Assembly (NCBI GenBank): GCA_002310075.1
Contig: DBXU01000169.1
Coordinates: 904 to 12,407, forward strand
DNA: 11,504 nucleotides
Direction of reading: 5' to 3'
Origin: Bacteroidales bacterium UBA1204
GTDB taxonomy: Bacteria; Bacteroidota; Bacteroidia; Bacteroidales; F082
Shown here in pieces: positions 3,086 to 11,504 of the stretch. The notes under the pieces were generated by a model, which was not told where the DNA came from, made no database searches, and saw only the letters and a program-made list of their open reading frames with translations. The stretch's first letter is position 1; the number at the start of each line of letters is the position of its first letter. A program made the translations under genes and the position numbers.

Positions 3086-6000
3086 TTGATTGTTTTTGTA
3101 GTGATACTTTCTATCATTACAAGCCTATTCATCGCCATACAAGACCCTATTATTCAGAAATTTGCCGTTCGGGTGGCTGGTGGTTATCTTTCTGAAAAAA
3201 CAGGTGCTGAAATCAAGGTGGGCCGTTTGGCTATCATGCCAGATTTTTCGGTGATGTTGGATGATGTGTTGGTGAAAGACCTGAGAGACAATAATTTGGC
3301 CAATATAGGAAGGCTTAGAACGAAAATTCATCTCGGTGATCTTTTGGATGGTGTGCTTCATCTGAGCAAGGTGGAGCTTGACGATACGGAAGCCAATCTT
3401 ATCCAATATCAAGGAGAGGATCATTACAACTATCAGTTTTTGGCCGACTTCTTCAGTTCTGATAAGGAGAAAGACCCTGGCAAGAAGCCGATGAAAATTA
3501 TTGTTGACGACATCAACATCAAAGGTCTCGACTTCGTGTTTTGGGACCAGAATTCCTCTGACATGGAGAAGTCCATGAATAACCTGATGGATTATGCTCA
3601 TATTGATGTCGACGATATCTCTTTGAAGGCTAAGAATTTCTATATGTACGGAGATTCCATTCATGCTATCATCGAAGGCTTGTCGGCGACGGAGCTCAGT
3701 GGTTTGGATTTGAAGCATCTTCAAGCCGATGCCACAGTGTCGTCGAAAGGCATTCTATTGGATGGGTTGAAAATGGAAACCAACAATAGCAAGTTTGATT
3801 TGGACTTGCACATGCTATATAACGATTACTCAGCTTTCAAGCATTTCGTCGATTCAGTCACTTTTGATGCCACCATCTATCCGTCTGACATCATGTTGTC
3901 TGATATAGGTGTGTTTACCCCTGTCATGTACGAGATGCCGGATAGGGTGAAGCTTGAATGCCGCTTTTCAGGACCTATCGAGCATTTTGAGGTAGGTGAC
4001 ATCAGTGCTGAATTGGGCCAGTCGACCCATTTCCAGGGATACTTGAGTATGCATCCCCTCGATTTCAATCATGGAGAGCATGTCATGAACATTAAGAACA
4101 TGCAGTTTAATTACGATGATATCGTAAACTTCAAGGTGCCGGGTGCTGGCAATATTCCGTTGCCCGAGTCGCTTCGCGCTTTGGATGGCGGCAATGTTAA
4201 GGTGAATTTCAAGGGCTCATACCTCGATTTCATGTCCGACATCGCTTTTGTCTCTGACGTGGGTAACGTGGATGCTTCCATCAATAGGGGGAAGGATGTA
4301 TATGGAAACAATGAGTTTTCAGGATATGTCAATGCGCAACAAGTTGCCATGGGTGAGATTGCGAAAGCGTCTAAGGTGTTGGGCGACATTGATCTGGATG
4401 CCGAGTTTTCTGCCCGATTCCCCAAAAATGGGAGTCCTGAATTGAGTGTGAACGGCAACGCCTATCATGCCAATGTGTTCGGGAATACCATTGACAAAAT
4501 CAAGTTGGACGGCGATCTCAAGGAAAATCGCTTTAATGGTAAACTCAATGTTAAAGACCCGCTTCTCGATTTGGATTTCAATGGTTTGGTCGATTTCCAA
4601 AATGCCAAATACCCCAAGTCTGATTTTGAGGCTGTTATTCATAAGGCCGATCTGAAGGCTCTCAATCTTGTCAAGAGCGACTCCGTTTCTGTGATCAGTA
4701 CTCGTATCTATGCCAACATGACGGGCTTCGACATCGATAATTTGGAAGGGACACTCCGTATCGACAGCACAGTCTATCATAATGGCAGTGGCGCGTTTTA
4801 CATGGATAGTTTCGATGCCAATATTGTGAATGACAACCTGATGCAACGGCGCATCAACTTGAACTGCGACTTCTTCAATTTTGATATGGGTGGGCAGTTT
4901 AGTTTTGCTGATATCGTGCCAGTCTTTAAGGAATATGTCAATTCGTTTGTGACGATTCCCAAATGGGAAGGCGACATGGCAAAGTTGGAGAAAAAGAGGC
5001 AAAAACACAATACGGAACAGGATTTCTACCTTAATCTGAACTTGAAGGATACGAAGCCGTTGAGCCGCTTGTTTATGCCTTCATTGACAATAGCCGACAA
5101 TACAACGTTGAATGGAACCTTTACCTCACGTTCCAATGCCTTGAACATCACACTGCGTTCAAAATACGTGAAATACGGTGATATTGTTGTCGACAATATT
5201 GAGTTGAAGAATTACAATTTCAACAAATCTTCTATTGCACATTTGTCCGTGGATGATGTTTCATGGAGCAAAGTGTCTGAAACGGACACGTTGGAGTTCG
5301 GTTTTGACAACCTGTCTTTCCTTACACGAATTGCCAATGACACGGTTTATGGCCATCTCGGTTGGGACGATGATGAGCTGGAGGATCATAATAAGGCGTC
5401 TATTGACATGACTTTCCATCCTAATGAGGGAGGTGGCGTGTTTAACCTCACAAAGATGGGTTTGGTTGTCAACGATTCATTGTGGACGGTTTCGCCTAGT
5501 AATTACATTGGATTTGATAAAGGCCGTATTGAAGTGTCGGATCTTGAATTTAGCCACAATAGACAAAAAATCAGAATCGATGGCTATGTGCCTTTGGGTG
5601 TGACGGATACTATCGCCTTGGATTTGAATCAATTCGATCTTTCCAACCTGGACCTTCTCTTCCAAAAGTGGGGCTTTGATATTGACGGCTTTGTCACGGG
5701 ATCGCTACAAGCGGGTAGCTTGAAAGAGAATCCCATGCTCTTGGCTGATGCAATGATTGAAGATGTTGTTGTCAATAATGTGACAATTGGCGATGCCAAG
5801 TTGTTGAGCCAATGGGATAATGCCAAAGAGTCGGTTGGGATCGATGCGAGCATTTTCCACAAGAAGAAACAAGCCTTAAGTGTTGTAGGTACCTATTACC
5901 CGAGACGAGAAAAAGACAATGTGGACCTTGCCGTCAGGATGGATTCGTTGAATATGTCCGTCATCAATCCTTTTGTTGGCAATGCGGTGTCGCGTGTCAA

Positions 6001-7555
6001 AGGATATGGCAAAGGTGAGGTCGCGGTGACGGGTTCCATTAATGCTCCCGATTTGAACGGTAAGATAGACATCGTCGATGGCGGATGCAAGGTGGGTTAT
6101 CTGAACACCTATTATTCGTTCAGTCCCACCATATTGCTAACACCGGAATACATTGGACTGAAGAATTTGGTTCTTGTCGACACGTTGGGTAATTCGGCTC
6201 CTGCTGAAGGACGTGTCTATCACAAGGCCTTTAAGGATCTTCGCTTGGACTTGAAAATGCATCCTCGTGATTTCTTGGCTATGGCTACAACGATAAAGGA
6301 AAACGATACTTTTTATGGTACTGTGTTTGCCGATGGCGTTGTGAGTGCAACGGGGCCCATCAATGACATCAATTTGAGCATTAAGGCCAAAACCGAAAAG
6401 GGCACCAGTCTAGTGTTGCCTTTGAACCGTACTACTTCCATCAAGGAAAACGATTTCATTGTTTTCGTCAACAATGCTATAGACGAAGAGGAATCTGAAG
6501 AAATTGTCGATGAGGTAAAGGCGAAAAGCAATCTCGCCGTCAATTTGGATGTCGATGTAACGGATGCTGCATCTGTAAAATTGTTCTTACCTGGTAATGT
6601 GGGTGTTATTGATGCTACGGGAAATGGTAATCTACGACTTGGCACTTCTTCTTCGGATGCCTTGTCGCTTATTGGCAGATATGTCATTAAGGGAGGGCGC
6701 TTCCAGTTGAATCTGAAAAATGTGATAACCCGAAACTTCAATTTGAAGTCGGGAGGCACCATTTCTTGGTCAGGCTCGCCCACGGATGGCCGTATCGATG
6801 CCACTGGTGCCTATCATGTGAAGGCTGACCTGAGTAGTTTGGGCGTGCAAATCGACTCAACCATGAACATGAACAACAAGGTTAGTGTTGAGTGCTTGAT
6901 TCACCTTAAAGGTGCTCTTCTTAATCCCACCATCACATTTGGAATGAAGTTGCCTAATGCTTCTGAAGATACGCAACAAACTGTCTATTCAATTATTGAT
7001 ACCACCGACCAATCGGTTATGGGAGGCCAAGTGCTGTCGTTGTTGCTGCTGGGCTCATTTAATAACACCGGTGGTGGCACTTCCGATTATTTCAATGCTT
7101 TTGCCAATAATATGCTTGGTGGCATCTCCTTCGAGATCACACCACATCTTGGCATGAGCCTCAGCCATGATATGGGTAGTGCCAATACCTATGAGGAATG
7201 GATGATGTCGCTCAGAAGCGATGTGTTCGACAACCGTCTTCTGATGGACTTCAACTTGGGTGTTATCATGAATAATTCCGATTCGACGGAGTTTAATGCC
7301 ATATCGAACATGGTCGCCGAATGCGACATCAACTATAGGCTTATGAAAGATGGGCGCCTGATGGCCCATTTCTATAACCATTCTAACTATAACACGAACT
7401 ATTCCAGTTTCTCATTCGATAAGTTGTCACCCTACACGCAAGGTTTGGGTCTTACCTATAGCAAGTCCTTCAATACCTTTGGCGAGTTGTTTAGGCGTAA
7501 AAATGCTGATCCGCAGCGCCCGTTTATCAATAGGAGAAATAACCCTAACAACTGA
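3086..7555 (+). CDS. tamB: TamB/AsmA-like envelope biogenesis protein (DUF490 C-terminus), start uncertain
   Basis: A very long protein (1489 residues from the TTG at 3086) of the TamB/AsmA-like group: inner-membrane-anchored, periplasm-spanning proteins implicated in outer-membrane protein assembly and lipid transport. An N-terminal hydrophobic helix (about 1-18) is followed by an AsmA-like entry region (IKVGRLAI, then LDDVLVKDLRDNNL) and by repetitive beta-strand sequence with no catalytic motif. From about residue 1100 to the end is the TamB/DUF490 region. It includes SGGTISWSGSPTDGRIDATG, a GMKLPNASEDTQQ segment, and a C-terminal part rich in aromatic beta strands ending in YTQGLGLTYSKSFNTFGELF, as in Bacteroidota homologues. 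No ATG exists near the start. The frame is open upstream to 3047 and encodes IIKKKIIHSI before the helix, which looks like a normal cytoplasmic n-region, so the true start may be ATT at 3056 (1499 residues). The helicase gene begins 2 nt after the stop. Confidence 0.88.
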   Translation: MIVFVVILSIITSLFIAIQDPIIQKFAVRVAGGYLSEKTGAEIKVGRLAIMPDFSVMLDDVLVKDLRDNNLANIGRLRTKIHLGDLLDGVLHLSKVELDDTEANLIQYQGEDHYNYQFLADFFSSDKEKDPGKKPMKIIVDDINIKGLDFVFWDQNSSDMEKSMNNLMDYAHIDVDDISLKAKNFYMYGDSIHAIIEGLSATELSGLDLKHLQADATVSSKGILLDGLKMETNNSKFDLDLHMLYNDYSAFKHFVDSVTFDATIYPSDIMLSDIGVFTPVMYEMPDRVKLECRFSGPIEHFEVGDISAELGQSTHFQGYLSMHPLDFNHGEHVMNIKNMQFNYDDIVNFKVPGAGNIPLPESLRALDGGNVKVNFKGSYLDFMSDIAFVSDVGNVDASINRGKDVYGNNEFSGYVNAQQVAMGEIAKASKVLGDIDLDAEFSARFPKNGSPELSVNGNAYHANVFGNTIDKIKLDGDLKENRFNGKLNVKDPLLDLDFNGLVDFQNAKYPKSDFEAVIHKADLKALNLVKSDSVSVISTRIYANMTGFDIDNLEGTLRIDSTVYHNGSGAFYMDSFDANIVNDNLMQRRINLNCDFFNFDMGGQFSFADIVPVFKEYVNSFVTIPKWEGDMAKLEKKRQKHNTEQDFYLNLNLKDTKPLSRLFMPSLTIADNTTLNGTFTSRSNALNITLRSKYVKYGDIVVDNIELKNYNFNKSSIAHLSVDDVSWSKVSETDTLEFGFDNLSFLTRIANDTVYGHLGWDDDELEDHNKASIDMTFHPNEGGGVFNLTKMGLVVNDSLWTVSPSNYIGFDKGRIEVSDLEFSHNRQKIRIDGYVPLGVTDTIALDLNQFDLSNLDLLFQKWGFDIDGFVTGSLQAGSLKENPMLLADAMIEDVVVNNVTIGDAKLLSQWDNAKESVGIDASIFHKKKQALSVVGTYYPRREKDNVDLAVRMDSLNMSVINPFVGNAVSRVKGYGKGEVAVTGSINAPDLNGKIDIVDGGCKVGYLNTYYSFSPTILLTPEYIGLKNLVLVDTLGNSAPAEGRVYHKAFKDLRLDLKMHPRDFLAMATTIKENDTFYGTVFADGVVSATGPINDINLSIKAKTEKGTSLVLPLNRTTSIKENDFIVFVNNAIDEEESEEIVDEVKAKSNLAVNLDVDVTDAASVKLFLPGNVGVIDATGNGNLRLGTSSSDALSLIGRYVIKGGRFQLNLKNVITRNFNLKSGGTISWSGSPTDGRIDATGAYHVKADLSSLGVQIDSTMNMNNKVSVECLIHLKGALLNPTITFGMKLPNASEDTQQTVYSIIDTTDQSVMGGQVLSLLLLGSFNNTGGGTSDYFNAFANNMLGGISFEITPHLGMSLSHDMGSANTYEEWMMSLRSDVFDNRLLMDFNLGVIMNNSDSTEFNAISNMVAECDINYRLMKDGRLMAHFYNHSNYNTNYSSFSFDKLSPYTQGLGLTYSKSFNTFGELFRRKNADPQRPFINRRNNPNN

Positions 7556-7557
7556 TA

Positions 7558-10500
7558 ATGATGGGAACAGGACAGTGTTTCAAAGTCTATCAGGCTTCAG
7601 CGGGTTCAGGAAAGACCTTTACCATTGTTAAAGAGTATCTTGAATTGTGCTTGATGAGCCCAGAACATGTGGGTAATTTCCGAAGGATCTTGGCCATCAC
7701 CTTTACCAATGCTTCGGCCAACGACATGAAGGTGAAGGTGCTGAATCATATCAATGGGATCATCAATAGTCCTGTCGGCCACCCTACCGACATGGAACAG
7801 ATGCTGTTGGAAGATTTGGGCATCAGCGATGACGAGTTGAAAACCAATGCGAAACTCCTATTGACGAGTGTTCTTCATGATTACAGCAGCTTTTGCATCA
7901 GCACTATCGATGCATTTGTGCAAAAGTTGTCGCGTACTTTCGCCATCGATTTGGGCCTTCCCAGTCAATATTCCGTTAGTGTCGATACCGATGAGATGGC
8001 TGAAACCATCAGCAATAATCTTGGTCTTCAGATGGGTGATGACAACCCTTTCTTAACCAAGATCATGACGGACTTCAGCGAGAATCAGTTTTCACACGAG
8101 AAGTTCGCTACAGTGCAAAACATGCTGACAGATTATGTCAAAAGGCTGATGACCGAGAAGGCTTATCAGAGAGATGAAAACAACATGATTTCCGATGCTG
8201 CCCAATACAAGGAAACGCTTGACTTCATGAACAAAAAAACCGATTCTTTTGAGACAAGAATCAAGGATTATGTCGCAAGGATTAAGGCAATAGAGAAGAA
8301 ATATAGCATCTTGGAAGAAGATCATGCCCAAGGCTCAAAGGGTTTTCCAAGCTTCCTCAAGAACCTGATGAAGGGGGAAGTGAGAATCTCAAGAAACGCC
8401 TCTAATGTTATGAATACCAGGAAATGGTATTCGACAAAAGCCGAGAAGCATTTTTCGAAAGACATGTTGGAACAGGTCGGGCAGGAACTGTTTGCAGTCT
8501 ACGATGCATTGATGAAAGTCGTGGAGGATTCTTCGGCTGAGTATTTGTTTTATAAGACACAGAAGGATGCATTGTTTTTATATGCTTTACGGTCGGCCAT
8601 CAATGAGGAGTTTTTGCGCGTTGTCCAGGACGAGGAAGTAGTGCATATCTCTGAGTTCAACAAGTTGCTTAACACGGTGATGGGCGATTTCTCGGTTCCC
8701 TTTGTGTATGAACGTATAGGGGAACGTTTCAACCATGTTTTTGTCGATGAGTTTCAGGATACGTCGACCATGCAATGGCAGAACCTATTGCCTTTGGTAG
8801 ACAACGGACTTGCCAACAATGCGATGAGCATGGTGGTGGGTGACGGCAAGCAGGCCATCTACCGTTTCCGCAGTGGGGAAGTAGGTCAAATAGTGAAACT
8901 GCCAGAGATTTATGCGCTGCCTACCGATGATCGTGAGCAAGCCTTCCAACAATATGAAAAGAGCCTGATCAACCATTTCAGTTTTAACCAACTTGATACG
9001 AATTATCGTTCATTCCAAGAGCTGGTCCGTTTTAATTCGGAGTTCTTTGAAAAAGCAAAGGACTATCTGCCTGAGCAATGGAAGTCAGTGTATGTTGGCG
9101 AGGATGTGGAGACTGGGAAGCACGTTTCGGTGGCACAAAGAAGTCATCAATCGCAGCAAGGCTTGGTTCAGGTGGAGCTTTATGACAAAGAAGCACTTCC
9201 GGATTATACACTCCAAAGGATCGAAGAGTTGGTTCGTGAACTCACCGAGCACAATGGCTATAACTGGGGTGACATCAAAATCTTGGTACGAAAGTCAAGA
9301 ACTGGCGCCATAATTGCCAATTATCTGAATGAAAAAGGGATCCCTGTTACTTCTGACGAATCCATTCTTCTTAAATCCTCAGATAAGGTACAACTTGTCG
9401 TCAATACCCTATATTACCTTGTCCATCCGGAAAACGAGGTTTATGTGGCAAATGTCTTGTATTACTATCGTTTGGTAAAAGGCGGGATTGCCGATGGCCA
9501 ACTCGACCAAGTGTTTGCTCAAGTGAAGAGGGTCGCGAATGGAGAGGTTGCCATCGAAATAGCAATGGGCATTGGCGAGCCTGGCGTGTTGACGCAGCTG
9601 CTGTCGAAAGCCACTTGTCTCTACGATTTCTGTATGACTCTGGTCAGGATGTATGGAATAGAGACTTTGTATGACGCCTACATGGATTACTTTCTTGAAG
9701 AGGTGTACAAGTTCCAATCGGGTCCAACCGAAAGCATTACCGATTTTCTTTCCATTTGGGAACGGAAGCAAAAAGACCTTTCTGTTCAGTCGGTCAGCAG
9801 CGATGCTGTTGGCATCATGACGATACATAAATCGAAAGGACTTGAGTTCAAGGTCGTGATTTATCCTGATGCCATCATCGATTTGGATGAACACACCCAA
9901 GGAAAGAGCGAAGAGATGTGGCTGGGTCCTGAGGAACTTGGCTTTGATGATATTCCGAATCTTACCAAGGTGCTATTTAAACTGGACTCGAATGCTGAAG
10001 AGTGTATGGGCGAGAAAGCGTCTGATTATTTCAAGTCAGAGAAGGGGAAAAACAGACTCGACAATCTCAATTTGCTATATGTGGCCTTTACGCGTGCCAT
10101 ACAGCGGCTTTATGTGCTTGCGCCTAAGGGGAAAATAGCTAAGAATGGAGAGCGTCAAGAGAACGTCATTATGGATTTTCTGGCCGATAAGGAAACGCAT
10201 TTGATTGAAGAGAAGGGCTCGGAGCTTGCGATTTATCGTTTTGGCGATCCTTGTTTTGTAGATCCTGATAAAAAAGAGGGGATGAGGAAGGAACCGAAGT
10301 CGGAAGTGGTTTCTGGCAACTGGATGGAAAAGATCCAATTGGATCCTGAACCCAGTATGTTTTGGATGAATGATCACGATAAGATGCAACCTGTTGAATG
10401 GGGGACGTTGGTCCATAAAATCCTTTCAAAGGTAGGAACTCGCGAAGATGTCGACAAAGCTATGGAACCGTATCTCCTTGATGGATCCTTGAACCATGAA

Positions 10501-10827
10501 ATGGCCGATATGTTAAAAAGCTTGGCAGATCAAATGGTGTCGATCCCGACCATTGCTAATGCTTTTGATTGTAGGGCCAAGGTGAAAAACGAGTGTGAGA
10601 TTTTGATCGATCACGAGATCATACGCCCTGACCGTTATGCCGAGCTTCCCGATGTCATTTATTTAATTGATTATAAGACTGGCAAAAAAGAAGAGAAGCA
10701 CCATCGCCAGCTAAAAAACTATATCTCTGCTTTGCAAAGGTTGGTAACGAAGGAAATTCGCGCCTATCTTGTATACCTATCCGACTCGATAGAGGTAGAG
10801 GAAGTGGTGTTGGATACTTTGTTTTAA
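7558..10827 (+). CDS. RecB/AddA-family UvrD-type helicase with C-terminal PD-(D/E)XK nuclease domain
   Basis: Probable helicase-nuclease subunit of an AddAB/RecBCD-type enzyme, which unwinds and trims double-strand DNA ends for RecA loading. The 1089-residue protein carries all superfamily 1A motifs: Walker A ASAGSGKT (13-20), Ia ITFTNASAND (47-56), STIDAFV (115-121), Walker B DEFQD (397-401), III VGDGKQAIYRFR (427-438), IV TNYRS (481-485), V TIHKSKGLEF (755-764) and VI YVAFTRA (841-847). The C-terminal nuclease has His953 in GTLVHKIL, Asp1025 in RPDR and DYKTG (1038-1042), matching the RecB-type His, Asp, Asp-x-Lys active site, so both activities appear intact. The start is the first of two adjacent ATGs; an AGGAG sits too far upstream (7532-7536) to decide it. 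It follows the tamB-like gene by 2 nt. The family is AddA-like in Bacteroidota, but no AddB partner gene is adjacent. An independent RecB-like role remains possible. Confidence 0.93.
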   Translation: MMGTGQCFKVYQASAGSGKTFTIVKEYLELCLMSPEHVGNFRRILAITFTNASANDMKVKVLNHINGIINSPVGHPTDMEQMLLEDLGISDDELKTNAKLLLTSVLHDYSSFCISTIDAFVQKLSRTFAIDLGLPSQYSVSVDTDEMAETISNNLGLQMGDDNPFLTKIMTDFSENQFSHEKFATVQNMLTDYVKRLMTEKAYQRDENNMISDAAQYKETLDFMNKKTDSFETRIKDYVARIKAIEKKYSILEEDHAQGSKGFPSFLKNLMKGEVRISRNASNVMNTRKWYSTKAEKHFSKDMLEQVGQELFAVYDALMKVVEDSSAEYLFYKTQKDALFLYALRSAINEEFLRVVQDEEVVHISEFNKLLNTVMGDFSVPFVYERIGERFNHVFVDEFQDTSTMQWQNLLPLVDNGLANNAMSMVVGDGKQAIYRFRSGEVGQIVKLPEIYALPTDDREQAFQQYEKSLINHFSFNQLDTNYRSFQELVRFNSEFFEKAKDYLPEQWKSVYVGEDVETGKHVSVAQRSHQSQQGLVQVELYDKEALPDYTLQRIEELVRELTEHNGYNWGDIKILVRKSRTGAIIANYLNEKGIPVTSDESILLKSSDKVQLVVNTLYYLVHPENEVYVANVLYYYRLVKGGIADGQLDQVFAQVKRVANGEVAIEIAMGIGEPGVLTQLLSKATCLYDFCMTLVRMYGIETLYDAYMDYFLEEVYKFQSGPTESITDFLSIWERKQKDLSVQSVSSDAVGIMTIHKSKGLEFKVVIYPDAIIDLDEHTQGKSEEMWLGPEELGFDDIPNLTKVLFKLDSNAEECMGEKASDYFKSEKGKNRLDNLNLLYVAFTRAIQRLYVLAPKGKIAKNGERQENVIMDFLADKETHLIEEKGSELAIYRFGDPCFVDPDKKEGMRKEPKSEVVSGNWMEKIQLDPEPSMFWMNDHDKMQPVEWGTLVHKILSKVGTREDVDKAMEPYLLDGSLNHEMADMLKSLADQMVSIPTIANAFDCRAKVKNECEILIDHEIIRPDRYAELPDVIYLIDYKTGKKEEKHHRQLKNYISALQRLVTKEIRAYLVYLSDSIEVEEVVLDTLF

Positions 10828-10833
10828 TTATTG

Positions 10834-10869
10834 AATAAAGCCCGCCAGAGACCTCTGGCGGGCTTTATT
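10834..10869. terminator. Bidirectional intrinsic terminator between convergent genes
   Basis: A perfect inverted repeat with arms 10834-10850 and 10853-10869, each 17 nt, and a GC-rich core (GCCCGCCAGAG paired with CTCTGGCGGGC). The two central bases are AC, so the real loop is probably 4 nt. The outer A/T pairs supply a T-rich tail in both directions (TTTATTT on plus, TTTATTCAATAATT on minus). It begins 7 nt after the helicase stop and ends 17 nt from the stop of the convergent dipeptidase gene, so it can end both transcripts. Confidence 0.92.
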
Positions 10870-10886
10870 TCTTATGTCAAGAAAAA

Positions 10887-11504
10887 TTATCTCTTGGCTT
10901 TCTTGGCTTGGGTCTTCTTGGCTGCAGCCTTCTTGACTGCGGCTTTGTTGACGGCAGCTTTCTTTACAGATGCCGCTTTCTTGTCGGCAGTCGCTTTTTT
11001 AGCTTGAGACTTATGGGCTGGTGCTTTTTTGGCAGGAGCCTTTTTCTTTGCTGTAGCTTTCTTTTCTGCAGTAGCCTCCTCTGTAGCAGCTTTCACTACA
11101 GTCGCTTTTTTGGCGGCTGCTTTTTTAGGGGCAGCTTTTTTGACAGTGGCCTTCTTGGCTACGGTTTTCTTGGTAGCCTTTTTCACGGCAACTTTCTTGG
11201 CTTCACCTCCCTTGGGTGCGTTCTTCAGAATGTCGCACATGAAGTCCCAGAACATCTGAACGGTGGCGATTTCGCAACGTTCGTCCGGTGAGTGCACGCC
11301 GCGCAGGGTGGGGCCGAAGCTGATCATGTCCATGCCCGGGATCTTGTCGCCGATAAGGCCGCATTCCAGTCCGGCGTGGATGGCTCTGACCTTAGGCTCT
11401 TTCTTGAAGCGTTTCTTGTAGCAATTCACAGCAACGTCCAAGATGGCGCTGTTGGGGTTAGGTGCCCAGCCAGGGTAACCGTCGGTGTGCTCCACGTCGG
11501 CATC
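10887..11504 (-). CDS. pepD: Aminoacyl-histidine dipeptidase (PepD, peptidase family M20), C-terminal part with a Lys/Ala-rich tail; 5' end outside window
   Basis: The last 205 residues of a cytosolic metal-dependent dipeptidase that hydrolyses Xaa-His and other dipeptides. The recognised part, from the window edge to about 11214, contains [47 protein letters not shown] and a closing helix [13 protein letters not shown]. The His of GVHSPDE corresponds to a zinc ligand of PepD enzymes, and [15 protein letters not shown] is diagnostic of the family. Family members normally end soon after the closing helix. Here the frame continues for about 108 more residues, nearly all Lys and Ala, to a TAA at 10887-10889. 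The GTG at 11493-11495 is an internal valine, not a start: the preceding codons (Asp-Ala-Asp) continue the family pattern to the edge. The gene converges on the helicase gene through a shared terminator. The dipeptidase assignment is firm; the tail's role is unknown. Confidence 0.92.
10890..11213 (-). repeat. Degenerate Lys/Ala repeat tract encoding a histone H1-like C-terminal tail of PepD
   Basis: 108 codons of low-complexity sequence at the 3' end of the dipeptidase gene. My count gives about 38 Lys and 35 Ala, with Thr and Val as the main fillers. The repeating patterns are [12 protein letters not shown] and APAKKAPA. One short acidic break (ATEEATAE) lies near the middle, and the tract ends [10 protein letters not shown]. 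At DNA level the units are imperfect 12-18 nt repeats rich in cttcttggc and gcttttttggc on the plus strand, with synonymous codons varied (AAG/AAA; GCT/GCC/GCA). It is therefore not a fresh tandem expansion. Similar tails occur in bacterial histone-like proteins such as mycobacterial HupB and in histone H1, where they bind nucleic acid; binding here is inference. Confidence 0.85.

Follow-up and report, generated by a model that had tools for sequence, protein, structure and literature searches.

A lysine/alanine-rich, H1-like C-terminal tail on the PepD dipeptidase of a gut Bacteroidales clade, a candidate nucleic-acid tether

The pepD end and its surroundings

The window, by which we mean the whole stretch of 11,504 nucleotides analysed here from Bacteroidales bacterium UBA1204, carries the 3' end of a pepD gene as a minus-strand open reading frame (10887-11504), its 5' end being cut by the window edge (Table 1). 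A gene encoding a UvrD-like helicase converges on pepD; it directly follows the gene of a TamB-family protein (3086-7555, the helicase occupying 7558-10827). The strong hairpin between the converging genes is a probable bidirectional terminator for both, and it was not listed by a consensus terminator scan. A relative of the helicase is found downstream of pepD in three related loci (L012, L013 and L017).

Table 1. Features at the pepD end of the window
Feature	Position	Strand	Basis
Hairpin between converging genes, foot TTTATT on either strand	10833..10870		RNA fold -29.1 kcal/mol, z -8.35 vs 200 shuffles
Stop codon TAA	10887..10889	-	Sequence
Basic C-terminus beyond the block, last residues KAKR	10890..10940	-	Sequence; all 34 tails of at least 20 residues end in K/R
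Conserved 26-residue block of long tails	10941..11018	-	16/16 long-tail rows fit the pattern; pN/pS 0.178
Variable tail part, AKKA-type repeats and one short acidic cluster	11019..11219	-	Length and sequence differ among relatives
Lys/Ala tail, 110 residues, net +34	10890..11219	-	Sequence; P0016 tail predicted disordered
Last 95 residues of the PepD catalytic core	11220..11504	-	TIGR01893, 119.8 bits over the fragment

The PepD core, through HSPDE and the last helix (ending at 11220), continues in frame as a tail that has 110 residues when counted from that helix (first tail base 11219), or 108 when counted from 11213, where an earlier, sequence-only reading of this DNA had placed its start. 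That reading had reported a PepD C-terminus with an in-frame Lys/Ala tail, which is confirmed here: the tail holds 38 Lys, 36 Ala, 4 Glu, 1 Asp and 1 Arg (67% Lys plus Ala, net charge +34), and is free of Phe, Trp and Tyr as well as of Ile, Leu and Met. Lysine is encoded by AAA and AAG in 20 and 18 cases, and all four alanine codons are in use (GCT 10, GCC 15, GCA 8, GCG 3). TRF found three short arrays in the tail, one of 2.0 perfect copies of 9 bases and two of 3.4 and 2.6 imperfect copies of 15 bases. Because the codons are mixed and the arrays short, recent DNA slippage was rejected as the source of most of the window tail, as the same reading had suggested. In-frame repeat growth does occur between relatives, as in a 7-residue gain in L010 compared with L008.

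The closest full-length relative among the matches listed (best 120 of 7767), P0016, has 579 residues and matches all 95 core residues of the window with 100% identity; its tail resembles the window's in kind, with 14 residues fewer and a few substitutions. Against the TIGR01893 profile, P0016, P0001 and P0004 reach 575.3, 577.6 and 581.8 bits, above the cut-off of 343.75, and the window fragment scores just 119.8 bits because the gene is cut at the window edge. The M20 peptidase and dimerisation domains are present in all three proteins, and the best structure matches of full-length relatives are the PepD structures 3mru and 2qyv, which align with P0001 as far as residue 486 and not beyond. 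For V. alginolyticus PepD, the published account gives H80, D119, E150, D173 and H461, together with D82 and E149, as metal ligands and catalytic residues (PMC6271292). With these positions carried over via the structure-match alignment, the corresponding residues of P0016 (H77, D116, E147, D170, H459, D79 and E146) are invariant in 35 aligned proteins (from 121), and H459 is the only one that falls within the window's part. In our best reading the gene encodes an intact, cytoplasmic Xaa-His dipeptidase (PepD) that is probably active; by eye, the N-terminus of a relative (MSNDILKLKPEG) shows no signal peptide. Ending shortly after the final helix, a usual but not defining trait of the family, is not seen here, where 110 extra residues follow; this extension is a variation within the PepD (M20) family.

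In an AlphaFold2 model of P0016 (35 sequences; mean pLDDT 76.1, pTM 0.65), the core is largely confident, with some weak loops, and residues 489-579 have a pLDDT of about 30-34 without secondary structure, so that the tail is predicted to be disordered, low pLDDT being an indirect sign of disorder.

Distribution and architecture of the tail

A scan of public genomes yielded 49 loci, 47 of them Bacteroidales or Bacteroidia by title (Alloprevotella included) and 2 from spirochaetes. Gut samples of yak, goat, deer or horse are named in 11 of the 49 titles, and the RUG-named genomes are rumen assemblies. Tails were counted in 44 orthologue rows, namely the window and 43 loci, to which two MAGs contribute two rows each; six distant loci (L043 and L045-L049), all tailless, were excluded. 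Tails of 20-110 residues are present in 34 of the 44 rows, 16 of them with 97-110 residues, and the other 10 rows have 2-6 residues. The last residue is Lys or Arg in every one of the 34 tails of at least 20 residues. Since 34 of 44 rows are tailed and the tail of P0016 is alike, an artefact peculiar to the window is ruled out. The sequence-only reading had allowed for relatives that lack the tail and a frameshift or misassembly here; the same kind of tail recurs in many separate assemblies, no evidence of an assembly or frameshift artefact was found in the window, and we give that explanation practically no chance.

Each of the two MAGs has two contigs holding differently tailed copies of the same pepD (L011 and L021 in G006; L009 and L037 in G013), which may be mixed strains or true duplicates. 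In L025, pepD is split into overlapping frames (3855-4299 and 4295-5609), either by a sequencing error or because the gene is broken; P0004, with the same tail, is whole.

In the G003-family survey, this PepD was found in 129 of 149 genomes at E <= 1e-36. A core end (97 residues) with at least 88% identity to that of the window is present in 27 genomes, of which 21 are tailed (20-108 residues) and 6 are not (G007, G010, G018, G099, G117 and G135). In the remaining 102 genomes the protein stops no more than a few residues after the last helix in 101 and is cut by the contig in one. The comparison of C-terminal extensions among relatives that the earlier reading had asked for separates close genomes, mostly tailed, from distant ones, where the tail is absent in 101 of 102. 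An order-wide sample of 393 genomes, searched at E <= 1e-11, a threshold that would miss PepDs with diverged ends, gave matches in 4 genomes, 3 of them tailed and already in the set and one (G032) with the core only. A protein search, in which 8000 candidates were scored and the best 120 of 7767 matches listed, added a deeper tailed protein, P0033, with a core 84.8% identical to that of P0016. As far as we looked, within the genomes surveyed, the tail is restricted to one clade.

Within this clade, tail length ranges from none to about 116 residues. A tailless group of six loci (L026, L027 and L029-L032) is supported and nested among tailed loci in the tree, which favours loss, though the tree is poorly resolved overall (15 of the 47 inner branches are starred and the bootstrap has not settled; 20% of the columns are filled in the window's row, and partial rows were kept); at least one lineage has probably lost the tail. 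Tail length follows the tree poorly, the changes needed being 7 for long, 11 for short and 4 for absent tails, and L011 (100 residues) adjoins L023 (30 residues). Considering the spread from 20 to about 116 residues and the 6 tailless genomes among 27 close ones, the function of the tail is dispensable or replaceable.

A second PepD paralogue, 48-57% identical over the core end, occurs in 14 of 15 genomes searched. None of its 9 readable copies (of 13 fetched; 8 from relatives of these genomes and 1 from Alloprevotella) has a basic tail. In some tailless relatives (L212, L235 and L236) the second pepD lies directly downstream of the first.

Short tails consist mostly of simple AKKAP-type repeats. 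In long tails a variable stretch of repeats, which often includes a single acidic cluster, precedes a 26-residue block. The block pattern [AE][HQ]KSQAKKAxxxKKxASVxKAAVxxA fits all 16 long tails compared, the same 16 from which it was derived, and among the matches listed P0002-P0018 carry the block or a near form of it. Searching 173 genomes with the block gave 17 matches in 16 genomes, 15 of them in pepD, one weak (G128, E 0.007) and one in an orphan tail remnant of G125. This remnant (L161, G125:C43:10445-10549) shares 89-91% DNA identity with L037 and L025, and no PepD core adjoins it. A query with the tail matched pepD only (10 matches in 9 of the 15 genomes searched).

A separate histone-like gene was considered as the source of the tail and rejected: a database search with the tail alone (7996 candidates scored) gave two matches, neither of them such a gene. 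One is a pepD fragment (P0123), and in the other (P0122), a single record on a 2964-base contig, the first part of a dihydropteroate synthase is joined to a pepD-type tail. Since folP and pepD lie about 8 kb apart on one contig in G016, P0122 is probably a rearrangement or an assembly chimera. No tail remnants were seen 3' of the stop in the 8 tailless relatives read.

Two DNA patterns, a narrower probe than a whole-proteome survey, revealed no genome-wide habit of K/A tails. AKKAxAKK occurs 14 times, in 5 of 10 genomes: pepD accounts for 13 of these places (4 genomes), and the remaining one lies in a frame antisense to another gene; the tailed G001, G003, G004 and G016 do not contain it because their repeats are less regular. 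KKAxxKKA was found at 29 places in 17 of 20 genomes (4 in the backwards control), 18 of them in pepD (12 genomes) and 11 elsewhere. By eye, three of these 11 resemble topoisomerase I, three membrane proteins, two small exported proteins rich in Cys and one a coiled-coil protein of the envelope, and two look like short frames. The topoisomerase I-like proteins (by eye; L178, L185 and L197) have a short Lys/Ala/Pro tract ahead of their final zinc-ribbon-like part, both in tailed genomes (G001, G008) and in a tailless one (G007).

Selection on the tail

Purifying selection keeps the tail as protein. For the whole tail, pN/pS is 0.254 (95% bootstrap 0.161-0.360; 13 related loci), and for the block it is 0.178 (0.068-0.354; 16 rows, window included), compared with 0.043 (0.019-0.075) for the last 94 core codons in the same 16 rows. 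In the 13 tail rows the core has a pN of 0.0054 and a pS of 0.247, and the tail's pN/pS is roughly 6 to 12 times the core's. Between the window and each of 15 others, dN/dS is 0.10-0.23 in the block and 0-0.07 in the core; the pairwise rows and the codon columns are interdependent, and the tail alignment is a MAFFT alignment of low-complexity sequence. The view that the tail is maintained as protein, for which the sequence-only reading had proposed a comparison of synonymous and nonsynonymous change, is borne out at a pN/pS of about 0.25. Synonymous distances from the window are larger in the block (0.77-1.65, over 26 codons only) than in the core (0.28-0.66), so the tail may recombine, or core synonymous sites may be constrained.

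Of the 28 lysine columns 2 changed (to Asn and Arg), as against 12 of 27 alanine columns (Fisher p 0.0019), in a test that allows only partly for differences in mutation rate between AAR and GCN codons. Nine of the 28 lysine columns vary synonymously, and nonsynonymous routes are no fewer for AAR codons than for those of alanine, yet lysine changes less. Glutamate changes in 4 of 6 columns, which are small numbers; none of the 18 Pro, Ser, Val and Gln columns changed, so lysine is not the sole residue kept. Across 34 tails (2229 residues) there is no F, W or Y, and I, L or M occur 34 times in all. Selection for a flexible, positively charged arm together with a specific block would leave such a pattern, whichever target the arm binds. 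A lysine/alanine store, one of the roles suggested from the sequence, would not predict lysines protected more than alanines and is disfavoured.

These tests largely refute the explanation that the tail is a neutral low-complexity run-on, formed by loss of a stop and subsequent growth of AAR/GCN repeats without function. Such an origin would find some support in the tailless ends ..NAPKK or ..NVPKAEK (L013, L029), which are close to the tailed start ..NVPKAEAPKAKK (L018), and in the several changes of tail class that the tree requires; it is set against a pN/pS well below 1 (bootstrap upper bounds 0.36 and 0.354), the stronger constraint on lysine and the fact that every one of the 34 tails remains in the basic frame until it ends in Lys or Arg, and we regard it as very improbable.

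The main rival to a nucleic-acid tether is a solubility or spacer tail, that is, a disordered, charged extension that keeps the enzyme soluble under a loose constraint on charge only, with no specific partner. Basic disordered tails can serve in this way, and the very variable length, the probable losses, the 7-residue in-frame gain (L010 vs L008) and the far greater conservation of the core would agree with it. We nevertheless consider it rather unlikely: all 16 long tails compared retain the 26-residue block, the paralogue is tailless (9 copies read), and lysine is protected more than glutamate (changed in 4 of 6 columns, small numbers), from which it seems that positive charge is kept and not charge generally.

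A possible nucleic-acid tether and known systems

On balance, we lean towards the tail being an electrostatic tether, confined to one lineage, by which an otherwise ordinary dipeptidase would be attached to DNA or RNA. In this proposal, the catalytic domain would have been extended at its end by a disordered polycationic tail in one gut Bacteroidales clade. Published structural work describes PepD as dimerising through its lid, with the C-terminus opposite the active site and lid domain (PMC6271292). Each dimer would carry two free arms, of about +34 each in the window's form, and a tail at the C-terminus would leave catalysis free. The most likely ligand of the tail is nucleic acid, either nucleoid DNA or RNA and ribosomes, bound without sequence specificity; the tail would hold or concentrate the enzyme there, in a manner like the proposed tethering of granules to the nucleoid by the H1-like tails of PhaF and AlgP. 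We infer the activity of the enzyme, the binding, the kind of nucleic acid bound and the unaffected catalysis. Tethering to nucleoid, RNA or ribosomes had been suggested from the sequence; the H1-like tail is real, and nucleic-acid binding appears the best fit to it.

Polyphosphate, another target suggested from the sequence, is unlikely, as neither PPK1 nor PPK2 was matched in any of 20 related draft genomes, tailed and tailless (0/20 each; 7/14 and 8/14 in controls); draft gaps hardly explain the absence of both kinases from all 20. Without a polyphosphate kinase match in these genomes, nucleic acid is left as the likeliest polyanion. Any polycation can bind a polyanion, and the conserved block could be a docking motif, so the tail might instead bind another acidic partner, such as membrane phospholipid, an acidic protein or an acidic polymer. 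The tails without aromatics and with few large hydrophobic residues, the lack of a polyphosphate kinase match in the 20 genomes and the relative's N-terminus without a signal peptide by eye all speak against such a partner, which we hold to be improbable. We see only a slim, if marginally better, chance that PepD also serves as a nucleoid or RNA-bound protein resembling a linker histone, its dimer's two H1-like arms and terminal block bridging or coating nucleic acid and coupling peptide turnover to the nucleoid, with the tailless paralogue as the soluble housekeeping enzyme.

The PepD enzyme and the H1-like type of tail are both already known. Their combination, with its clade-restricted, lysine-favouring evolution, appears to be new; no dipeptidase with such a tail was found among the matches listed in open-licence PMC full texts. 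If the proposal is true, a metabolic enzyme has evolved an H1-like arm, and bacteria can attach enzymes to nucleoid or RNA by a cheap, quickly evolving module. The clade offers natural controls in PepD cores 93-100% identical to P0016 with tails of about 5, 30 and 100 residues, and a further one in the tailless paralogue of the same genomes, so the effect of a polycationic tail on an enzyme is directly testable.

Compared with the PepD structures 3mru and 2qyv, the whole core, the fold and the catalytic residues are alike in full-length relatives. These structures and the tailless relatives stop a few residues past the final helix, whereas the tailed clade adds 20 to about 116 basic residues; the statement of the sequence-only reading that known PepD proteins lack such a tail holds for these two matched solved structures.

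Profiles of H1-like proteins matched the tail below their cut-offs. For PF07382 (HC2, cut-off 40), the window reached 28.6, P0016 26.6 and P0004 25.5 bits, with no match listed for P0001; on the window, NF038052 (HC2) gave 21.1 bits against a cut-off of 135 and NF038053 (histone H1-like DNA-binding protein) 29 against 80. Precomputed annotation assigns PF07382 to 6 of 120 proteins (best 120 of 7767), including P0016. In 14 related genomes HC2 gave 3 matches, all pepD tails, and none in 11 genomes, tailed ones among them; 2 of 14 control genomes also had sub-threshold matches. The window tail is like these families in composition and differs in being joined to an enzyme.

The H1-like tails of AlgP and PhaF are thought to tether granules to the nucleoid, and AlgP also works with polyphosphate (PMC9239181, PMC13052382). 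In these Pseudomonas proteins, as here, a long, disordered, Lys/Ala-rich C-terminal tract with a variable number of repeats follows an unrelated N-terminal part, and the P0016 tail, by its low pLDDT, is predicted to share their intrinsic disorder. The head is a granule protein there and an enzyme in the tailed PepD, and the likeness is one of composition; on reading, the window tail has no KPAA tandem repeats of the AlgP/PhaF type, its repeats being AKKA-type. PepA, leucine aminopeptidase, belongs to a different peptidase family from PepD and, to our knowledge, has no K/A tail. PepA has been shown to bind RNA and so offers a known case of a nucleic-acid-binding peptidase (PMC11587861).
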